A stretch of DNA of 39,403 bases from Cyanobacteriota bacterium. Lineage in GTDB: Bacteria > Cyanobacteriota > Cyanobacteriia > PCC-6307 > Cyanobiaceae. This document shows positions 8,228-25,235 of this stretch, piece by piece. Positions within the stretch are counted from its first letter, which is position 1. Each line of letters opens with the position of its first letter. The notes under the pieces are model-generated. The model was not told where the DNA came from. It made no database searches and saw nothing but the letters and a program-made list of their open reading frames with translations. Position numbers and translations under genes: made by a program. The stretch covers positions 1 through 39,403 of the forward strand of contig JAPLIE010000178.1 of NCBI GenBank assembly GCA_026389265.1. The letters are read 5' to 3'.

Positions 8228-9558
8228 TGGCGGCCCTTTCCATGCCCATCGCCGTGGCTGCTGTCAGCAGCTGGGGCTCCGAGCTCCTGAAAACCTTAGA
8301 GGTCCGCGTGTCGCCGGAGCCTGCCCTGGCGGCGGCGCAGCAACGGGCGGCCCAGGCCCTTGCAGACCGCCCGCTGCCCTCCCGGCGTCAGGAGGCCTGG
8401 CGCTTCACGGATATCGCACCCCTTTTGGGGATCACCACGGCCCTGCTGCCCCCGGCAACCACCGGGCCAGCCACGCTGCCCCGGGCTACGGCTGGGGTGG
8501 TGCGGCTGGTGCTGGATGGCCATGGCGATCCGCTGGCGGGGGTGAGCCTGCCGACCGGCATTGAGCCGATCCCCGTTGCCGATCTGGAAGCCCTGCTGCA
8601 GGAGACAGCCACCGATCGGGGAGAAGATCGGGGAGCGACTGGAGCGTCCAACCACGCCGCGGCCAGGGCCGGCTCTGAACCGCCCTGGAGCGGCCTGCTG
8701 GCCGCCGCTTCCGCCGGCCAGATCCTGGCCCTGCGGGTACGGGGCTTTGTGGAGCCCACCCTTGAACTGGTGAGCGATGCCGCCAGCGCTGAGGGTGTGC
8801 TGCCCCTGCGGCTGCTGCTGATCCTGGAACCCGAGGCCCGCCTAGAGCTCCTGCAGGTGCATCGTGCCGCCGGCGCCAGCCTCACCACCGTGCTGCTGGA
8901 GGCCCGCCTCGGGGCCGGCGCCCAGCTCAGCCATGGCCTGATCGGCCAGGGGGTTGGGGCCGCGGTGCTGCTGGCCGACCTGGCGATCGATCAGCAGCCT
9001 GGCAGTCACTACGCCTTTACCAGCGCCGTGGCCGGTTGGGCCCTGTCGCGGCTGGAGCCCCGCGTGCTCCAGAGCGCCGGCGGCGCCACCACCCGCCTGC
9101 GCTCGCTGCAGCGGGTGTATGGGCGCGAGATCGCTGATCAGCACAGTCAGGTGCGCTTCGAGGGGCCCGAGGGCGAGCTCGACCAGCTCCACAAGGCGAT
9201 CGCCGACGGGGCCGGCCGCAGCGTGTTCAACGGCGCCGTGGCGGTGCCCCGGGCCGCCCAGCGCACCAATGCCGTGCAGCTCAGCCGCAGCCTGCTCCTC
9301 TCGGACCGGGCCCGGATCGACACCAAGCCCCAGCTGGAGATCGTGGCCGACGATGTGAAGTGCGCCCATGGCGCCACCGTGAGCCGCCTGCAGAGCGAGG
9401 AGCTCTTTTACCTCCAAAGTCGCGGCATCGCCGCTGCCAATGCCTCCCGCCTGTTGTTGCGCGGATTCTGCGGAGAGGTGCTGCGGGAGCTGCCGGCGGC
9501 TGCCGCGATCTGGCAGCCTCTAGCGATGGTGATGGCCGAGGAGGCCTCTCGGCCATGA
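8227..9558 (+). CDS. sufD: Fe-S assembly subunit SufD
   Basis: SufD pairs with SufB in the SufBC2D complex and is needed for iron entry and cluster formation. The protein is 443 aa. The N-terminal helical region contains LPSRRQEAWRFTDIAPLLG. The beta-helix core follows, then the conserved C-terminal block [27 protein letters not shown] and LLLRGFCGEVL. ATG 8227 overlaps the sufC stop by one base; a GTG immediately before it (8224) is also in frame. The stop overlaps the start of sufS by 4 bp (ATGA). Confidence 0.96.
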   Translation: MAALSMPIAVAAVSSWGSELLKTLEVRVSPEPALAAAQQRAAQALADRPLPSRRQEAWRFTDIAPLLGITTALLPPATTGPATLPRATAGVVRLVLDGHGDPLAGVSLPTGIEPIPVADLEALLQETATDRGEDRGATGASNHAAARAGSEPPWSGLLAAASAGQILALRVRGFVEPTLELVSDAASAEGVLPLRLLLILEPEARLELLQVHRAAGASLTTVLLEARLGAGAQLSHGLIGQGVGAAVLLADLAIDQQPGSHYAFTSAVAGWALSRLEPRVLQSAGGATTRLRSLQRVYGREIADQHSQVRFEGPEGELDQLHKAIADGAGRSVFNGAVAVPRAAQRTNAVQLSRSLLLSDRARIDTKPQLEIVADDVKCAHGATVSRLQSEELFYLQSRGIAAANASRLLLRGFCGEVLRELPAAAAIWQPLAMVMAEEASRP

Positions 9559-11015
9559 CCCTCACTCCCATGCCGATTGATGCGGCCCCAGGCGGCATCA
9601 ACAGTTCCCCTAAAGGCCCTTCTGGGCACCCTCCAGCCCCAGGCGCCGGCTCCAATCCCCCCATGACAGCGACCCTCCCCGGCCAACCGAATGTTTCTGC
9701 CGGTGTGACGGAGCCCTCCCAGGCGATCTTCTCCGCCGCGATCACCACCCCTGCTCCTCTTGATGCCCACGCCGAGGATCTCGCGGCCCTCACCCGCCCC
9801 GATTTCCCACTGCTGAGCCAGATTGCTTGCCTGGGCCAGCCGCTGATCTATCTCGATTACGCCGCCACCAGCCAGAAGCCCCGCCAGGTGCTGGAGGCGC
9901 TGCAGCATTATTACGGCCACGACAACGCCAACGTGCATCGCGGCGCGCACCAGCTCAGCGCCCGCGCCACCGAGGGCTTCGAGCATGCCCGCGAGAAGGT
10001 GGCGGCCTTTGTGGGGGCGGCCAGTGCCCGCGAGATTGTGTACACCCGCAACGCCAGCGAGGCGATCAACCTGGTGGCCCGTACCTGGGGTGAGGCCAAC
10101 CTGCGCCCCGGCGACGAGGTGCTGCTCTCGGTGATGGAGCATCACAGCAACCTGGTGCCCTGGCAGTTGCTGGCGGCCCGCACCGGCTGCGTCCTGCGCC
10201 ATGCCGGTCTCACCGAATCCGGCGAGCTGGACCTGGAGGATTTCCGCAGCAAGCTCACCGATCGCACCCGGCTGGTGAGCCTGGTGCAGGTGAGCAATAC
10301 CCTCGGCTGCCTCAATCCGATCGCCACGCTGGCGCCGCTCGTGCATGCCACCGGTGCCCTGCTGCTGGTGGATGCCTGCCAGAGCCTGCCCCACCAGAGC
10401 GTGAACGTGGTTGAACTGGGCTGCGATTTTCTCGTGGGCTCCTCCCACAAGTTCTGCGGACCCACCGGTATGGGCTTCCTCTGGGCGCACGAGGCGTTGC
10501 TCGAAGTGATGCCCCCCTTCCTGGGCGGTGGCGAGATGATCCAGGACGTGGAGCTCGACACCAGCACCTGGGCCGACCTGCCTCACAAGTTCGAGGCGGG
10601 CACCCCGGCGATCGGCGAGGCGATCGGCATGGGCGCCGCCATCGACTACCTGCAGGCGATCGGCATGCAGCGCATCCACGCCTGGGAGCAGCGGCTCACC
10701 CGCCGGCTGTTCGCACGGCTGCAGGCGATCGAAGGCCTGACGATTCTCGGCCCCACCCCCGAGCAGCAACCGGATCGCGCCGCCCTGGCAGCCTTCCACG
10801 TCGAGGGTCTGCACGCCAACGACATCGCCGCCCTGCTGGATTCCTCGGGCATCTGCATCCGCAGCGGCCACCACTGCACCCAGCCCCTGCACCGCCACTA
10901 CGGTCTCTCGGGCACTGCCCGCGCCAGCCTCGGCTTCACCACCACCGAAGCCGAGATCGACCGCTTTGGCGAGGAGCTTGAGGGCGCGATCGGGTTCCTG
11001 CGGGAGCACAGCTGA
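9555..11015 (+). CDS. sufS: Cysteine desulfurase SufS (group II), long N-terminal extension
   Basis: PLP enzyme that extracts sulfur from cysteine and delivers it as persulfide to the SufBCD scaffold. The PLP lysine is in SSHKFCGPTG (about Lys299) and the catalytic cysteine is in RSGHHCTQP (about Cys441). Other family blocks are YLDYAATSQKPR, NVHRGAHQLSARAT and VLLSVMEHHSNLVPW. From ATG 9555 (ATGA overlap with sufD) the protein is 486 aa, roughly 70-80 residues longer than typical; the extra part (residues 1-80) is Pro/Ala/Gly-rich. ATG 9663 would give 450 aa and also lies before the conserved core. The overlap with sufD favours 9555. No SufE gene is present in the window. A degraded partial copy of this gene lies at 22836-22994. 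Confidence 0.96.
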   Translation: MTLTPMPIDAAPGGINSSPKGPSGHPPAPGAGSNPPMTATLPGQPNVSAGVTEPSQAIFSAAITTPAPLDAHAEDLAALTRPDFPLLSQIACLGQPLIYLDYAATSQKPRQVLEALQHYYGHDNANVHRGAHQLSARATEGFEHAREKVAAFVGAASAREIVYTRNASEAINLVARTWGEANLRPGDEVLLSVMEHHSNLVPWQLLAARTGCVLRHAGLTESGELDLEDFRSKLTDRTRLVSLVQVSNTLGCLNPIATLAPLVHATGALLLVDACQSLPHQSVNVVELGCDFLVGSSHKFCGPTGMGFLWAHEALLEVMPPFLGGGEMIQDVELDTSTWADLPHKFEAGTPAIGEAIGMGAAIDYLQAIGMQRIHAWEQRLTRRLFARLQAIEGLTILGPTPEQQPDRAALAAFHVEGLHANDIAALLDSSGICIRSGHHCTQPLHRHYGLSGTARASLGFTTTEAEIDRFGEELEGAIGFLREHS

Positions 11016-14340: not shown

Positions 14341-16251
14341 TCAGCCCTGCCAGGTCTGCACCACGGCGCTGGTGAGGGAGCCTGCGTCGACGCCGGGCAG
14401 CAGCACCTGCTGGGCGTTGAAATCCAACAGCACGCTGGCGCCGCCGGGGGTGGCCACCACGCGGGCCTGCTGGCCTTCGGCCCAGAAGCCCTTGAGGTCG
14501 AGCACGTCCTGACGGGGATCGAAGCCGTTGATGGTGAGCCGGCGACCCCAGGCGTAACTGAGCTGGAAGCGCTCGGCACTGGTGGCACTGGCGCTGAGGG
14601 TGGTGGTGGCGGCCGCCACGGCGATGGGGAGGGTGCCACCCACGGCCGGGGGGCTGGTGAGTGTGCCGCCCGGGGCGGGCGGAGTCAACGGGGTGGTGCC
14701 ACCGGAGATCACCGGATCGGTGCCGTAGTCGCCCCAGAGGGCGCTGAAGCTGCCATCGGCGGCGGCGGTGCCGCTGTGGGTGTTGGCCACCTGGCCCACG
14801 GGCCCCGCCTTGTCGCGGGCGATCGACCACATCGAGAGCATGCCCAGGCCCTTCTGGCGGGCGAAGTCCTCCAGCAGCTGGGCATCGGCGACGGTGAACA
14901 CCTCGCTGGTGATGTCGTTCACGCCGATCATCGGGGTGACACCCAGCTGGTTCCAGCCGAAACCCTGGTTGAAGCCCTGGAACAGGTCGCTCAGCTGGCG
15001 GAAGCTGGCGTTGGCGGCATCGATGGCGTACTGGCCCATGGTTTTAAGGGCCGGCGGCGCGGCGCCGTCGCCGTAGTCCATGGCCATGATGTTCACTCCA
15101 TCGAGCTTCACCCCCGCCGCCAGGGCCTGGCGCACCACCGCCAGGCCGTCGGCGGTGAGGCCCTGGGGCAGCACCGGCAGGGTGGTCCAGATCTCCAGGG
15201 CGGGATGGCTCTGCTGCAGCAGCTTCAGGGCATCGGCCAGCAGTTGGTTGGCGGCCCGGTTGGCCAGGGCGGCACCTTCGATGTCGAAGTCGATGCGGTT
15301 CAGGGCGAGGCTGTCCACCACCTGGCGGTAGCGGTTGGCCAGGTCGTTGGCGGTGGCGCCGCTGGCCGCCAGCTTCTCGGCCAGGCTCACGCCGGCGGCC
15401 CCCCCGAAGGACACCATCGCATCGCCGCCCACCGCCCGCAGCTGGGCAACTTCCTGCCGCAGGGCGATGGCCTGGCTGTTGCTGCTGTTGAGGCTGAGGG
15501 CCTCCAGGCCGGCCCAGGCGGCATTCCCGGCGGCCGTGGCCTGGATGAAGCCGAGGGTGAAGAGGCCCACTCCGTGCTGGCGGGCGAGGCCATCGAGGTC
15601 GGGCACCGGGTAAAGGCCCATGTCCACGTAGGGAGCGAAGAACTGCTCGCCCCAGAGGGCATCGGCGGCGTTGCCGGAGTTGGCGCCGCCGGGTGGCAGG
15701 GGGGTGGTTGTGGTGCCACCGCCGCCGCTTGGGGTGGTGCCGCCGCTGGTGCCGGGAGTCGTCGTCGGAGTGGGATTGGGCGTCGGGGTTGGAGTTGGTG
15801 TGGGTGTTGGAGTTGGTGTCGGCGAGGGCGTAGGGGTTGGAGTGGGCGTAGGAGTTGGTGTCGGCGTGGGGAGCGGCGCTGGCGTGGAGCTGCCCCCGCG
15901 GCTGACGGTGAGCAGCACCTCTTTGGCGCTGAGCATCGCCAGCCGGGTGCCGCTCGGCAGGGCTCCCTGCACGTAGGAGCTGCTGGCGCGGTTGGGCAGC
16001 AGGGTGGTGCCCCAACTGGGGGGACGCAGGGTGATCAGCCAGGTGCCATCGGCCTGCTTGCTTTGCTGGAGGGTGAAGTTGCTCACCTGGTTGAGCGCAT
16101 AACGGCTCACGAAGCTCACGCTCCACTGGCTCAGCGCGGTGGCGGAGGTGTTGGTGAGGCTGATTTCCCCGTCAAAGGCGCCGTTCCATTGGTTGCGGAT
16201 CGTGAGGTTCAGGCTGATGCCTGGGGTGCTGCCCGCGGTGGTGATGACCAT
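14341..16251 (-). CDS. GH18 chitinase with N-terminal carbohydrate-binding domain and Pro-Thr linker
   Basis: Predicted secreted chitinase of 636 aa. Domain order: a CBM2-like beta domain (residues about 10-115, with [20 protein letters not shown]); a long Pro-Thr linker (about 119-167); a GH18 barrel (about 190-495) with the SxGG motif in VSFGGAAG (about 280), the catalytic DxDxE motif in RIDFDIEG (proton donor about Glu325), [11 protein letters not shown] and LSMWSIARD; and a C-terminal beta domain (about 550-636) with [13 protein letters not shown] and [16 protein letters not shown]. There is no N-terminal signal peptide from ATG 16251; the C-terminal pattern resembles caps of type I secretion substrates. 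All catalytic residues look intact. The LuxR-type regulator gene lies 110 bp upstream on the same strand. Chitin use has been reported in marine picocyanobacteria. Confidence 0.85.
15750..15893. repeat. Repeat-encoded Pro-Thr linker
   Basis: Low-complexity DNA on the plus strand built of GTn-GGn units (GTTGGAGT, GTGGGCGT and similar), encoding alternating Thr-Pro, with one Ser-Pro and one Asn-Pro interruption, in the chitinase on the minus strand. The six-base periodicity makes it liable to length change. Confidence 0.85.
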
Positions 16252-16360
16252 GGAGGGAGGGATGGGGGAGGGCCCGATTCTTCGACGGCCCCTGCGCCGC
16301 CGCCATCCTGCAGATGAAGGATTCCGCCTTCGCGGCTCAGCACCGGGCCGGCCTGTGGAT

Positions 16361-17080
16361 TCAGGGGAGGTAGCCGAGCCGCAGGCCGGCCACGGCGGCG
16401 GCGGTGCGATCGGGCACCTGCAGCTTCGAGAGGATGCGCTGCACATGGTCGCGGGCGGTGACCTCGGCGATCTGCAGCCTCTCGGCGATGGCGCGGTTGG
16501 TGCAGCCCTCGGCCACCAGGGCGAGGATTTCCACTTCGCGGGCGGTGAGTTCGAGGCTGGCCGGACCCGTTTCGGCGAGCACGGCCTGGCAACGCGCATC
16601 GAGGAAGGCCTGCCCCCTACCGAGGCTGGTGACAGCCTGCAGCACCACGCCCCGACCCACGTTCTCCTGGCTGATCAGGCCCTGCACCCCGGCCGCCAGG
16701 GCGGCCCGGATCACCACCCGGTGCGGGTTGGCGAGGCTGAGCAGCACGGTGGGCGGCGAGGGGCGCTGCAACAGCTGGCCCAGCACCGGCAGGGCTGGCC
16801 CGTCCTGCAGAAATTCCTGGCTGAGCACCAGCACGTCGGTGGCGATCTCCGGCAGGAGCGCCGGCACGGAGGCGGCCCGATGGCAGAGGCCCAGCAGCTG
16901 CTGGGAAGGCTGCCCCGCGGGGGTGTCGAGCATGTGGGCCGCCATCAGCAGGCCGTAGGTCCGATCGGTGGTGCAGAGCAGCAGGCGCCATGGACGCAGT
17001 TCGTCACTCAGGCGGCGCTTCTGTTCCTGAAGCCAGAGCGGGTCGGGCTGGGTGGGGGCGTGGTCCTGGCCTTGCTCCAT
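16361..17080 (-). CDS. LuxR/NarL-type response regulator with degenerate receiver domain
   Basis: A 239-aa transcription factor. Residues about 35-160 have the shape of a receiver domain (RLLLCTTDRTYGLLMAAHML, ATDVLVLSQEFLQDG, PTVLLSLANPHRVVIRAALA, AGVQGLISQE). By alignment the phospho-acceptor Asp is replaced by Ser in DVLVLS and the conserved Lys by Gln in LISQE, so it probably does not respond to phosphorylation in the normal way. The C-terminal helix-turn-helix is intact: LTAREVEILALVAEGCTNRA, IAERLQIAEVTARDHVQRIL, SKLQVPDRTAAA. The start is ATG 17080. It lies just upstream of the chitinase gene on the same strand and is divergent from the amidase lipoprotein gene, so it may control one or both (inference). 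Confidence 0.82.
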   Translation of the reverse strand: MEQGQDHAPTQPDPLWLQEQKRRLSDELRPWRLLLCTTDRTYGLLMAAHMLDTPAGQPSQQLLGLCHRAASVPALLPEIATDVLVLSQEFLQDGPALPVLGQLLQRPSPPTVLLSLANPHRVVIRAALAAGVQGLISQENVGRGVVLQAVTSLGRGQAFLDARCQAVLAETGPASLELTAREVEILALVAEGCTNRAIAERLQIAEVTARDHVQRILSKLQVPDRTAAAVAGLRLGYLP

Positions 17081-17247
17081 GCCTTGGGAGGTCTGGCCCG
17101 TGGAATCATCCCGTCGTAGCGGAGCAGCGTGGCAAACGGCAGCGGTGTTGACGCCAGATCCACGCTGCTTCTGACTGGACGCACTTGCATGCGGTGGGTT
17201 GACAGGGAAAGGGCGCGACAGCGACGAGATCGAGATGGCTAACGACA

Positions 17248-17261
17248 GCGATCGCGATCGC
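17248..17261. repeat. Two overlapping HIP1 octamers
   Basis: GCGATCGCGATCGC contains two overlapping copies of GCGATCGC, the highly iterated palindrome of many cyanobacterial genomes. It lies in the divergent gap between the LuxR-type gene and the amidase gene. Confidence 0.85.
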
Positions 17262-17341
17262 AAATGGGACAGGGACAGCGGTATCCATTTTCCCAACGAC
17301 CAAGGTGCTGCGGGACAGCGTGGTGCTGGGGGGGCGGAGGG

Positions 17342-17346
17342 AGGAG
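17342..17346 (+). promoter_or_regulatory. Ribosome binding site choosing GTG 17355
   Basis: AGGAG ends 8 nt before GTG 17355 and only 2 nt before GTG 17349. It therefore favours GTG 17355, placing a basic n-region directly before the lipoprotein signal. Confidence 0.5.
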
Positions 17347-17354
17347 TTGTGGCT

Positions 17355-18173
17355 GTGGCCGCCGGGCATGGGGGTTGGCGTGCCCTCGGCTCAGGCCGGG
17401 CCGGTGCTTTTCGCTCCGCAAGATCCCTGCTTCCCCTGCTGCTCCTGGTGCCCCTGGCCGGCTGCGGCCCCCGCCCCCCGTTTGAGGTGCAGACCCTGGC
17501 CGATGCCGGCCTGAAGCCCCTGCCCGCCGAGCAGCTGGAGGCCTGCGCCGCGACATTGCGGCTGCCCCCCGAATTGCCCCGCCCCGCCGCTGCCACCAAC
17601 TTCGGCGAGCGCCAGCGGCGCGATGCCTTTGGCCGCGAGGTGCCGCACCAGCCCCAGCTGATCGTGCTGCATGAAACGGTGATCAGCGCTGCCGACACGG
17701 CCCGCCGTTTCGCCACCCCCCACCCCCGCGACGACGACCAGGCCAGCTACCACCTGCTGCTGGACCGCGCGGGCCAGCGGCTGCGGATCGTGCCCGATGC
17801 GGGCCGGGCCTTCGGGGCGGGTATGGCGGCCTTCGGCGATTTCACCGTGCGGATCCGGCCCGGCTCGGTGGGATCGCTCAACAACGTGGCCCTGCACCTG
17901 AGCCTCGAGAGCCCGCCCGATGGCCGCGGCGATGGCGATGCCCATTCCGGCTACACCGCCGAGCAATACCGAGTGGCGGCGGGCCAGGTGCTGCTGTGGC
18001 AGGCGGCCTTCGGCATCCCGATCAGCCGGGTAACCACCCACCAGGCCGTGGACCGCAGCCACAGCCGCCGCGATCCCCGCAGCTTCCGCTGGCAGGCGTT
18101 CGATGCCGCCTGGCGTGACGCGGCCCAGCGCTGTGGGCTCACGGCCTACGACCGGGGGCGGGCGACGCTCTGA
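17355..18173 (+). CDS. N-acetylmuramoyl-L-alanine amidase-type lipoprotein (Amidase_2 fold)
   Basis: Predicted envelope peptidoglycan amidase. The N-terminus has arginines (about residues 9-24), a hydrophobic segment SLLPLLLLVPL and the lipobox LAGC, indicating lipid attachment. The catalytic domain (about 95-265) has QLIVLHETVISA with the first zinc-ligand His, the SYHLLLDRAGQ strand, NNVALHLSLES and the C-terminal THQAVDRSHSRRDPRSFRW, which supplies further His/Asp ligands. The Amidase_2/PGRP fold normally cleaves the bond between MurNAc and L-Ala. The start is chosen by the AGGAG site; a longer frame from 17199 adds non-conserved residues. The gene is 272 aa, divergent from the LuxR-type regulator, and not in an obvious operon. 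Confidence 0.78.
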   Translation: MAAGHGGWRALGSGRAGAFRSARSLLPLLLLVPLAGCGPRPPFEVQTLADAGLKPLPAEQLEACAATLRLPPELPRPAAATNFGERQRRDAFGREVPHQPQLIVLHETVISAADTARRFATPHPRDDDQASYHLLLDRAGQRLRIVPDAGRAFGAGMAAFGDFTVRIRPGSVGSLNNVALHLSLESPPDGRGDGDAHSGYTAEQYRVAAGQVLLWQAAFGIPISRVTTHQAVDRSHSRRDPRSFRWQAFDAAWRDAAQRCGLTAYDRGRATL

Positions 18174-21826: not shown

Positions 21827-22792
21827 TCAGCCCCCGGGCACCAATTCCCCATCCCACAGGCTCGCCAGCGTGTAAGGGCCCCCCTCCAGGCACCAGATGC
21901 GGCCGTCGATCAGCCGCCGCCCCTCATCCAGCGCCGTCAGGCGGGCCATTAGCTCCCCATCGAGCGCCTCTCCCGCGGCGGCCAGGTTTTCGGCTAGCCG
22001 CGCCGGCTGCACGGATTTGGGGATCACGGCGGTGCCGCAGCCGATCCCCCAGGCCAGCAGCAGCTGGGCCGGGGTGAGCCCCCGCTGCGCCGCCAGCGCC
22101 ACCACCTGCGGGTGCTGCAGCACCAGCGGCGGCCGGTTGGCGCCACTGGAGCCCAGCGGCCCGTAGCCGGTCACCACCACCCCGTGCTCGCGGCACCAGG
22201 CGATCAGCTCGTTCTGCTGCAGCAGCGGATGGCGCTCGATCTGCAGCGCCTCCGGCCGGATCCGGGCCCCGGCGCTCAGGTCCTTCAGCTTGGCGCCACT
22301 GAAGTTCGACACGCCGATGTGGCGCGTCAGCCCCTGATCCACTAACGCCTCCATGGCGGTCCAAGTGGTGGCCAGAGGCACCTGCTCGAGGCTCAGCTGC
22401 TGCTCGGGGCTGCTCGCCATCGCCACGCCGCGCCGCTGGGCCAGCGGCCAATGCATTAAGTAGAGGTCGAGCTGTTCGAGGCCCAGGTCCGCCAGGGTGC
22501 GCTCCAGGGCCGGCCGCACCTCGTGGGGCTCGTGGCAGTCGTTCCAGAGCTTGCCGGTGATCCACAGCTGCTCGCGCTGCACGAGGCCGTCGGCGAAGGC
22601 CTGCCGCAAGGCCTCGCCGATCTGGGGCTCGTTGCCGTAGATCGCGGCCGCATCAAGGTGGCGGTAGCCCAGCTCCAGGGCGGTGCGCACCGTGGCGGCG
22701 GTGCGCTCGGGCGGCAGGCGCCAGCTGCCGAGGCCCAGGGCGGGCATGGCGTCGCCGTTGGCGAACGGCAGGGCGGGCATGGGGCGGGACAT
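21827..22792 (-). CDS. Aldo/keto reductase
   Basis: NADPH-dependent reductase of the AKR superfamily (TIM barrel), 321 aa. Motifs in order: MPALGLGSWRL; GYRHLDAAAIYGNEPQIGEA with the catalytic Asp and Tyr; LWITGKLWND with the catalytic Lys; LDLYLMHWPLA with the catalytic His; RHIGVSNFSGAKL; and AVIPKSVQPARLAENL for cofactor binding. The catalytic Asp-Tyr-Lys-His set appears complete. ATG 22792 is used; a TTG four codons upstream is also open. The substrate cannot be predicted. The gene is flanked on its 3' side by a protease-gene fragment and on its 5' side by a sufS fragment, suggesting it entered by recombination. Confidence 0.93.
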   Translation of the reverse strand: MSRPMPALPFANGDAMPALGLGSWRLPPERTAATVRTALELGYRHLDAAAIYGNEPQIGEALRQAFADGLVQREQLWITGKLWNDCHEPHEVRPALERTLADLGLEQLDLYLMHWPLAQRRGVAMASSPEQQLSLEQVPLATTWTAMEALVDQGLTRHIGVSNFSGAKLKDLSAGARIRPEALQIERHPLLQQNELIAWCREHGVVVTGYGPLGSSGANRPPLVLQHPQVVALAAQRGLTPAQLLLAWGIGCGTAVIPKSVQPARLAENLAAAGEALDGELMARLTALDEGRRLIDGRIWCLEGGPYTLASLWDGELVPGG

Positions 22793-22835
22793 AGGGGCGG
22801 CCAATAGGAGCGGTGATCGGCCGGCTGACCGCGGC

Positions 22836-22994
22836 GCCCTGACGGCCTACACGCTGGAGGGACTCCATGCCAACGATCTCGCCTCCCTGCTGGATTCCGC
22901 CGGCATCTGCATCCGCAGCGGCCGCCACAGCACCCAGCCCCTGCACCGCCGGTTTTCTCAGGAGGCATTCCTGAACGGCGCCTCAGGCCAGTGA
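22836..22994 (+). pseudogene. Fragment of sufS with catalytic Cys replaced by Ser
   Basis: The plus-strand frame reads LEGLHANDLASLLDSAGICI then RSGRHSTQPLHRR, matching [30 protein letters not shown] of the intact SufS at 10782-10901. At the DNA level I count about 18 differences over 114 bp with no gaps. The catalytic cysteine codon TGC is AGC. The match ends near 22955 and the frame stops at 22994. Only about 40 codons of the 3' region remain, so it is non-functional. Confidence 0.85.
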
Positions 22995-23351
22995 GTGGAG
23001 CCCGATCGCATTGCCTTCGGTGTCCACCAGGATCGAGATGAAACCAAACGGGCCGATCGACATCTTGGTCTGCTTCACACTGCCGCCAGCCGCCACGGCC
23101 CGCCCCTCCTCGCTGATGCAGTCCGCGCTGCTGAAGTAGGCCAGGGTGCCGCTGCCTCCTGAGGGCACACCTGGCATGTGCACCAGCGCGCCGCCGGCGC
23201 CCCATTGGCTGGAGTCGGAGGGGAAGGCCCACATGGGGATTTGGCTATCCAGCTTCTCGAGCTGGAAGCCAAACACCGCCTCGTAGAAGGCCTTGGCCCG
23301 CTCCAGATCCTGAACGTAGATCTCGACCCAGGCAAAGGCGTTGGCGGCCAT
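22983..23351 (-). CDS. VOC-family (glyoxalase-like) protein
   Basis: A 122-aa protein with the vicinal-oxygen-chelate fold of two beta-alpha-beta-beta-beta repeats: FAWVEIYVQDLERAKAFYEA then VFGFQLEKL, and later GTLAYFSSADCISEEGRAVA and FGFISILVDTEGNAIGLHS. Members include metal-dependent isomerases and dioxygenases and many of unknown role; the set of metal ligands here cannot be fixed confidently. ATG 23351. Its 3' end overlaps the end of the sufS fragment frame by 12 bp, and it is divergent from mtnA. Confidence 0.88.
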   Translation of the reverse strand: MAANAFAWVEIYVQDLERAKAFYEAVFGFQLEKLDSQIPMWAFPSDSSQWGAGGALVHMPGVPSGGSGTLAYFSSADCISEEGRAVAAGGSVKQTKMSIGPFGFISILVDTEGNAIGLHSLA

Positions 23352-23450
23352 GGCGATCGAAGGTACAGGAGTTCTTCAACGTAGGCATCCCATCCGGTGT
23401 CGTCCAGCACGTTGTCCCCGCTTCCTCCGATCCTTCAAGATTGCGTCGCT

Positions 23451-23458
23451 GGAGAGGG
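23451..23458 (+). promoter_or_regulatory. Ribosome binding site choosing GTG 23463
   Basis: GGAGAGGG lies 4 nt before GTG 23463 and supports this codon over the upstream in-frame GTG 23397 as the mtnA start. Confidence 0.5.
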
Positions 23459-23462
23459 ACCT

Positions 23463-24596
23463 GTGAACATTGAAGGCAAGGCCTGGCGCACCATCGGCCT
23501 GCAGGAGGGCGGCGAGGCGGTCTGGGTGATCGACCAGACCCTGTTGCCCCATCGCTTCGAAACCCGTTCCCTCCGCTCCCTGGAGGACGCCGCGGTGGCG
23601 ATCAGCACGATGGTGGTGCGGGGCGCCCCCCTGATCGGGGTGACCGGCGCCTACGGCCTCATGTTGGCCCTCCAGCGCGACCCCTCCGATGGCGCCCTGG
23701 CGGCGGCCTTCGAGCAGCTCAATGCCACCCGTCCCACCGCCGTGAACCTGCGCTGGGCCCTGGAGAGGGTGCGCGATCGGGTGGCGCCACTGCCGGAAGC
23801 GGAGCGGGCCGCGGCGGCCCAGGCCGAGGCGGGCGCCATCGCCGAGGAGGACGTGGCGATGTGCGCGGCGATCGGGGATCACGGCCTGGCGATCTTCCGC
23901 GAGCTGGCGGCGGCCCGGCCTCCCGAACGTCAGGGACAACCCTTCAACGTTCTCACCCACTGCAACGCCGGCTGGCTGGCCACGGTCGACTGGGGCACGG
24001 CTCTTGCGCCCATCTACAAGGCCCACCGATCCGGCCTGAAGGTCCATGTGTGGGTGGATGAAACCCGCCCCCGCAACCAGGGCGCCAGCCTCACCGCCTA
24101 CGAACTGGGCCAGGAGGGGGTGCCCCACACCGTGATCGTGGACAACGCCGGCGGGCACCTGATGCAGCACGGCCAGGTGGATGCGGTGATCGTGGGCACG
24201 GATCGCACCACCCGCCGCGGCGATGTGTGCAACAAGATCGGCACCTACCTCAAGGCCCTCGCCGCCTTCGACAACAAGGTGCCCTTCTACGTGGCCCTGC
24301 CCGCCTCCACGATCGACTGGAGCATCGACGACGGCGTGGCCGAGATCCCGATCGAGGCCCGTTCCGAGCGCGAGGTGACCCAGATCCAGGGGCAGCTCAC
24401 CCCGGCAGGGGGAACGTCCAGTGGCGGGAACGAGGCACCGGGCCACCTGGCCACGGTGCAGCTCACACCCACCGGCTCCCGTGGCTTCAACCCGGCCTTT
24501 GATGTCACCCCGGCCCGCCTGGTCAGCGCCCTGATCACCGAGCGAGGCGTGGCGCCGGCCAGCGAGGCGGGATTGCGGGAGCTGTACACCGGCTGA
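23463..24596 (+). CDS. mtnA: S-methyl-5-thioribose-1-phosphate isomerase MtnA
   Basis: Methionine-salvage enzyme that isomerises 5-methylthioribose 1-phosphate to methylthioribulose 1-phosphate. Motifs are present in order: [40 protein letters not shown], the catalytic-Cys block [38 protein letters not shown], and the catalytic-Asp block [20 protein letters not shown]. The C-terminus has [19 protein letters not shown]. With GTG 23463 the protein is 377 aa, slightly longer than average. No other methionine-salvage genes are nearby. A hairpin at 24701-24729 may end the transcript. Confidence 0.95.
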
Positions 24597-25037: not shown

Positions 25038-25235
25038 CTAAGTACGATCCCGGGCCTTTAGTTTGCGCAGGATGTTCTTCACGTGGGTCTTCACGGTTTC
25101 CGGCGTGTTCTTCAGGCTTTCGGCGATCTCGGCGTTGCAGGCGCCATTCACAATCGCCTGCACCACCTCAATTTCACGAGCGGTGAGCAGGCTCTCCTGG
25201 CGCTGGGCTGGCTCCGAGGACGTCCATCCAGGCCG
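25038..25235 (-). pseudogene. Orphan LuxR-type helix-turn-helix remnant
   Basis: The minus-strand frame encodes a near-complete LuxR/NarL DNA-binding domain: LLTAREIEVVQAIVNGACNA, EIAESLKNTPETVKTHVKNI, LRKLKARDRT, then stop at 25038. There is no ATG in frame upstream; the frame opens at 25298 after a stop and reads low-complexity residues. No receiver or sensor domain is present. The C-terminus is also short for the family. Either the 5' part was deleted or a short HTH-only protein uses an unrecognised start. Confidence 0.7.

Follow-up and report, generated by a model that had tools for sequence, protein, structure and literature searches.

A decayed sufS 3' end between an aldo/keto reductase gene and a VOC gene in a member of the Cyanobiaceae

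The joining of DNA through one homologous end and one illegitimate end is a described process (available text of PMC3240628), additive transfer can proceed via homologous recombination in flanking regions (available text of PMC11375855), and the exchange of genomic islands by homologous recombination has been proposed (available text of PMC4033161). In the excerpts of the literature on sufS, pseudogenes and cyanobacteria at hand, relics of the kind described below are not named. We analysed a window of 39,403 nucleotides from a Cyanobacteriota bacterium of the Cyanobiaceae (assembly GCA_026389265.1, contig JAPLIE010000178.1, positions 1 to 39,403), one contig of a draft genome (3.49 Mb in 214 contigs; 95% complete), which holds an intact sufS and, between genes for an aldo/keto reductase (AKR) and a VOC (glyoxalase/bleomycin-resistance-like) protein, an incomplete second piece of sufS, here called the relic. 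We give odds of about one in two to the view that an orthologous sufS formerly adjoined the VOC gene, and that its 3' end, now dead, arrived together with VOC as hitch-hiking DNA and persists as the relic, a recombination scar.

Extent and decay of the sufS relic

The suf genes of the window run up to the intact sufS, a plus-strand ORF recognised by sequence and profile match (9360–11015; true start inside the ORF) that has its catalytic TGC (Cys) codon at 10875–10877. The relic stands 11.8 kb downstream of it on the same contig and strand. Its main block (22827–22950, +), 41 codons round the active site with an Aminotran_5 match, paired with positions 10773–10896 of the local sufS at 107/125 bases with two 1-base gaps in blastn (E 3e-35) and at 104/124 bases (84%) when aligned ungapped; the best of 300 shuffled relic pieces reached 60/124 against the local sufS. 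By blastn and by the shuffles, the homology to a functional gene that is asked of a pseudogene is above chance. A search of the own genome with the sufS piece returned the intact gene and the relic, with no third match. The sequence-only reading had described a gap-free sufS match of about 114 bp at about 84% identity within 22836–22994, and the figures are exact, as the final 114 bases of the main block agree with the local sufS at 96/114 (84.2%) without gaps; the location also holds, but the homology to the local gene already begins at about 22827, and the proposed end overran by 12 bases because the VOC gene, read from the opposite strand, occupies the DNA from 22983.

On the left, the relic has an uncertain edge, which lies at about 22827 by the local sufS and at about 22815 by the matches to a few g60 sufS genes (G214, G240, G228). 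A possible left joint is the 14-mer GGCCGGCTGACCGC (22819–22832, +), which overlaps the start of the sufS homology by a few bases and is also present in the AKR-mtnA spacer of genome G037, although that match is weak (E 0.021), the spacer repetitive, and the g60 matches just mentioned run past the 14-mer. The spacer in question (L299:4568-5480) is full of short repeats such as GCTGACC and GGCCGGCTGACC. On the right, positions 22951–22974 (+) align with the sufS tail of two g81 genomes, G129 and G161 (GFLRRHS-stop in the relic, GFLREHS-stop in g81). Agreement was 16/24 with the 24-base tail of G129 (equalled by 55/100,000 shuffles of the 35 bases), 16/24 with that of G161 (56/100,000) and 15/24 with that of the local sufS (176/100,000). 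From alignment and shuffles, this stretch reads as the displaced final eight sufS codons, stop included, in another frame than the main block, and the relic as a whole looks like a sufS 3' end with an internal loss of about 95 bases.

At 22929–22931 (+) the relic has AGC (Ser) where the local sufS has the catalytic TGC, confirming an exchange that had been noticed from the letters alone; the catalytic position is Cys in 58/58 sufS genes compared, and base 22929 is private to the relic. A second change is found two residues ahead of the Cys, where the His codon has become CGC (Arg; 22923–22925). Five relic bases occur in none of the 58 sufS genes, all of them at first or second codon positions and all of them protein-changing (5/5), the mean differences among the 58 functional genes being 3.3, 1.5 and 11.8 by codon position (approximately 16.5 in total); constraint on the relic is relaxed. 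Since the Cys-to-Ser change is one of these five private mutations, it reads as decay rather than as new function. The private bases, the internal deletion and the lost Cys agree with the earlier description of the feature as a gene relic. It looks dead and is most likely functionless: with no start, about 95 bases deleted, the catalytic Cys turned into Ser and the nearby His into Arg, its predicted product cannot be an enzyme.

The best relic stretch spans positions 326–373 of the 403 in the SufS profile TIGR01979 and scored 44.1 bits; two CsdA models gave 28.8 and 25.8 bits, below TIGR01979, and a second SufS model, NF006791, gave 22.8 bits. A full-length class V aminotransferase domain is absent, the 41 codons and the eight tail codons being what remains. 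By these profile scores (NCBIfam), the relic is SufS-type and not CsdA-type.

Gene order at the relic in the window and in relatives

The relic occupies the sufS strand between two genes of the opposite strand. To its left is the AKR gene (21827–22804, −; PF00248), which has its 5' end toward the relic and 94% DNA identity to the nearest genome, G023. To its right, tail to tail with it, is the VOC gene (22983–23351, −; PF00903), with 8 bp between the end of the relic tail codons at 22974 and the VOC stop. There follows mtnA, encoding methylthioribose-1-phosphate isomerase (23463–24596, +; TIGR00512 equivalog, 413 bits against a cut-off of 279), which is 90% identical in DNA to that of G023 and, together with its leader, resembles it. 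In trees, the AKR of the window's subclade groups with the AKR of G005 (six rows, SH-aLRT 100), and the window VOC pairs only with the VOC of G005 (100/98), apart from the genus's other VOCs; the VOC tree had 32 rows and took in some of the 49 genomes in which VOC had a match. GC over the VOC gene (approximately 0.60–0.66) is somewhat below that of AKR and mtnA, a weak hint. Rfam at gathering scores returned nothing in the window and ARAGORN no tRNA, leaving an att site at a tRNA without support here; there was no phage match to the relic plus VOC and no plasmid match to the relic alone. Elsewhere in the window, a 752-aa ORF (14341–16599, −) with a marginal CBM_2 match and a sub-threshold GH18 match adjoins an ORF for a LuxR-type regulator (16361–17716, −), and related DNA lies next to the AKR of G034. 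A 42-aa ORF (25038–25166, −) resembles, by eye, the end of a LuxR-type DNA-binding domain and is perhaps another gene remnant.

Genomes G129 and G161 (genus g81) have the order sufS(+)-VOC(−)-mtnA(+), which matches the relic-VOC-mtnA order of the window, and their sufS/VOC joint is tail to tail, as is the relic/VOC joint. A head-to-head pair of VOC and mtnA is present in the g67, g78 and g81 loci examined and also, more widely spaced, in G029 and G035. Set beside these loci, relic-VOC-mtnA looks like an old gene order in which sufS has decayed. In G026, G037 and G032, the last with a truncated AKR, the AKR faces mtnA without a recognisable VOC or sufS piece between them. No VOC match and no second sufS match was obtained in G026, G032, G034 or G037, a weak VOC match in the short spacer of G032 (32% along 50 residues; E 0.016, from a very small database) not being counted. 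G032 and G015 have only fragments of AKR beside mtnA (L295:5931-6014 and L296:773-981). In G023 the AKR-mtnA spacer is broken by two contig ends, corresponding to 22767 and 23410 of the window, which places an assembly gap at the relic site. In G005, AKR and VOC are adjacent on the far side of mtnA with about 60 bp between the matches and without the relic, so that the AKR-VOC pair may predate the relic. Among 400 family genomes searched, only the window genome matched the relic together with its flanks, and tblastn with the local SufS found no intact second SufS in the fetched loci.

Source of the relic and competing explanations

We searched 400 genomes sampled from the family with the relic region. 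Beside the window, the closest matches were sufS genes of other genera (G149, 90%; G123, 89%; G196, 89%); within the own genus the top match was the sufS of G001 (86%, 144 bits), and the local sufS had 86% and 138 bits. In a comparison of 63 sufS genes, the local one ranked 24th by bit score, 23 others scoring higher. Fifteen of the 20 differences between the relic and the local sufS are present in other sufS genes, the other five in none of 56. At one site with a rare base common to the sufS genes of the window and G023, the relic has the usual base. These counts favour the suggestion of the sequence-only reading that the relic did not arise by recent copying of the local gene, which is probably right, even if the AU test allows a local source (p 0.447). 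A closer match outside the local gene, which the same reading had suggested seeking in another subfamily or strain, was found in the sufS of other strains (G149) and not in another subfamily. The T at 22884 (Ser codon) recurs in 4/56 other sufS genes, and these four are precisely the members of the G005 clade in the set; together with the VOC pairing with G005 it may be one of two hints at one donor clade. In the sufS tree the relic groups with G001, G005, G018 and G039 at 100/100, yet by DNA identity its nearest neighbour is in g60 (G149) and not in the G005 clade, and AU tests rejected neither a pair of relic and local sufS (p 0.447) nor pairs of the relic with g60 (0.546) or g81 (0.551). 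We claim no source for the relic, because the AU tests allow other placements and the trees constrained to relic+g60 and relic+g81 had higher likelihood than the free tree; judged by these trees, the relic is too short for its source to be named.

The explanation that we prefer, arrival together with VOC, would proceed as follows. An orthologous sufS would have stood tail to tail with VOC in the order sufS(+)-VOC(−)-mtnA(+), as still in g81, and its tail would have entered the window lineage together with VOC as hitch-hiking DNA, through a recombination that had its anchor in mtnA and ended in an illegitimate joint next to AKR. As the host retained its own intact sufS, the incoming tail would have been without function and would have decayed by internal deletion, change of frame and loss of the active-site Cys and nearby His. 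In this account the homology to sufS as far as its 3' end, the VOC-mtnA neighbourhood, the matching order in G129 and G161 and the relaxed constraint are observed, while we infer which way the DNA moved, where it came from and how it was joined. Arrival with VOC is supported by the gene order in G129 and G161, the pairing of VOC with G005, the T at 22884, the AKR and mtnA flanks, which are those of the window's subclade (94% and 90% to G023), the AKR-mtnA spacers of G026, G037 and G032 that are free of a recognisable VOC or sufS piece, the five private bases and, weakly, the GC content over VOC. We count against it the AU tests, the nearest identity in g60, the AKR-VOC pair of G005 without a relic, the assembly gap of G023, the weak VOC match of G032 and the weakness of the 14-mer; no recombination breakpoint was located in mtnA.

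The main rival, which we regard as possible though doubtful, is that the scar formed in place: in an ancestral sufS-VOC-mtnA arrangement, DNA carrying a sufS end and new genes (AKR, later others) would have been inserted between sufS and VOC. The sufS that came in or was rebuilt would have stayed intact while the old 3' end decayed beside VOC, and several members of the subclade would later have lost both. Other genomes of the genus do show an intact sufS, cargo, a sufS relic and then native downstream DNA, and the grouping of the window-subclade AKR with that of G005, with AKR and VOC adjacent in both, fits such a history; however, it needs repeated loss (G026, G032, G034, G037) where a single gain in the window lineage suffices, and the window relic lies 11.8 kb from sufS and not 2–4 kb. 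Under either of these two accounts the relic would be the dead scar of an orthologous sufS. A partial duplication of the host's own sufS followed by decay would account for a single locus that shares contig and strand with sufS, and the AU test keeps the grouping of the relic with the sufS of the window and G023 (p 0.447), but we consider it unlikely given that 15 of the 20 differences are bases of other sufS genes, that the relic has the common base where window and G023 share the rare one, and that the VOC joint fits another gene order.

Two further possibilities have little in their favour. That the relic stems from a true second desulfurase, a SufS/CsdA-type paralogue, had been suggested by the sequence-only reading, and it would suit a relic that probably did not arise by recent copying of the local gene; we nevertheless regard it as very improbable, since the SufS model scores best, the nearest sequences are ordinary orthologous sufS genes of related genomes, the VOC-mtnA neighbours fit an orthologous tail, and the tblastn of the fetched loci gave no intact second SufS. 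Least probable of all is a functional leader or antisense RNA, a putative VOC-AKR transcript carrying about 124 bases complementary to the sufS mRNA. The relic does lie between VOC and AKR, both on one strand, in a suitable orientation and with perfect complementary runs of 22 and 21 bases, but there is no promoter-like or terminator-like match in 22700–23500, the relic with its flanks is confined to this genome among the 400 of the family, and the relic bears no sign of constraint.

Second sufS pieces in the genus and comparison with known systems

A search of 42 genomes of the genus with sufS, scoring 9 candidates per genome, gave a second sufS piece of at least 78% identity in nine of them (the window genome, G003, G004, G008, G009, G011, G012, G029 and G040), a lower bound because sufS lies near a contig end in several others (e.g., G002, G013, G024, G035). 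Each of the nine pieces shares its contig and strand with the intact sufS and lies downstream, at a distance of 2.1–2.6 kb in seven, 4.3 kb in G029 and 11.8 kb in the window; no comparable piece was found elsewhere among the 9 scored candidates per genome in the 42 genomes. The decayed pieces of the eight other genomes are at loci L110, L111, L064, L067, L069, L072, L079 and L082. Second sufS matches of 65–74% (G009:C18, G013, G017, G022, G024) were set aside as presumed other class V aminotransferases because their identity was low and they lay on other contigs or at a great distance from sufS, the two sufS matches of G007 were taken as one gene split over two contigs, and G038 gave no sufS match at all. 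Across these 42 genomes, with 9 candidates each, mtnA as the one control gene, a small control, gave no second match of more than 60 bits, barring copies divided between contigs in G005, G007 and G016, and in 18 family loci there was no second sufS piece at E 1e-3. In G228, one of these 18, the intact mtnA is followed at about 1 kb by a 32-residue match to the mtnA 3' end (L250:6097-6192; E 1e-4), a similar scar of another gene.

The last sufS codons are kept in seven of the nine pieces (6/8 without the window) and lost in G003 and G040. The relics of G008, G011 and G012 continue into DNA that follows sufS in the relic-less G006, and that of G009 continues into DNA downstream of sufS in G013. 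The cargo of G003, G004, G008, G011 and G012 is one homologous stretch of about 2.1 kb, approximately 90% identical, whose ORF in G008, the only copy of the five that was scanned, encodes an autotransporter; G009 carries a P450 gene, G029 an ABC transporter and an arylsulfotransferase-like gene, and G040 an ORF with a PAP2 match under the Pfam cut-off. No integrase or transposase was found in the 7 cargo ORFs scanned. We tentatively propose that in this genus added genes have landed repeatedly at the sufS 3' end, where incoming DNA would bring or rebuild an intact sufS, add cargo and leave the old end as a scar; candidate cargo would be the autotransporter, the P450, the ABC transporter with the arylsulfotransferase-like protein, the PAP2-like protein and perhaps AKR, a list that is equally tentative.

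The relic itself is of an ordinary, known kind; the pattern round it, a clustering of such scars downstream of sufS, is mildly interesting and deserves to be followed. Because it marks an old gene border, such a relic records a recombination event that intact genes hide. Taken together, the window relic and the eight scars like it suggest repeated uptake of new genes in the region behind the conserved suf operon.

With SufS, a group II cysteine desulfurase (TIGR01979), the relic shares the 41 active-site codons and the last eight codons, and it differs from the enzyme in having neither a start nor the lost 95 or so bases, nor the catalytic Cys and nearby His. The sufS pieces of the eight other genomes are like it in gene, strand and downstream position; theirs, however, lie 2–4 kb from sufS, and four of them (G008, G009, G011, G012) could be traced into DNA that follows the sufS of a relic-less relative, whereas the window relic is 11.8 kb away beside VOC. 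Among described processes, the relic resembles the scars of additive transfer, including homology-facilitated illegitimate recombination, as given in the available text of PMC3240628 and PMC11375855: a probable truncated orthologue beside what may be an added gene, with possibly homologous flanks. In contrast to those scars, the mechanism is here read from gene order alone.
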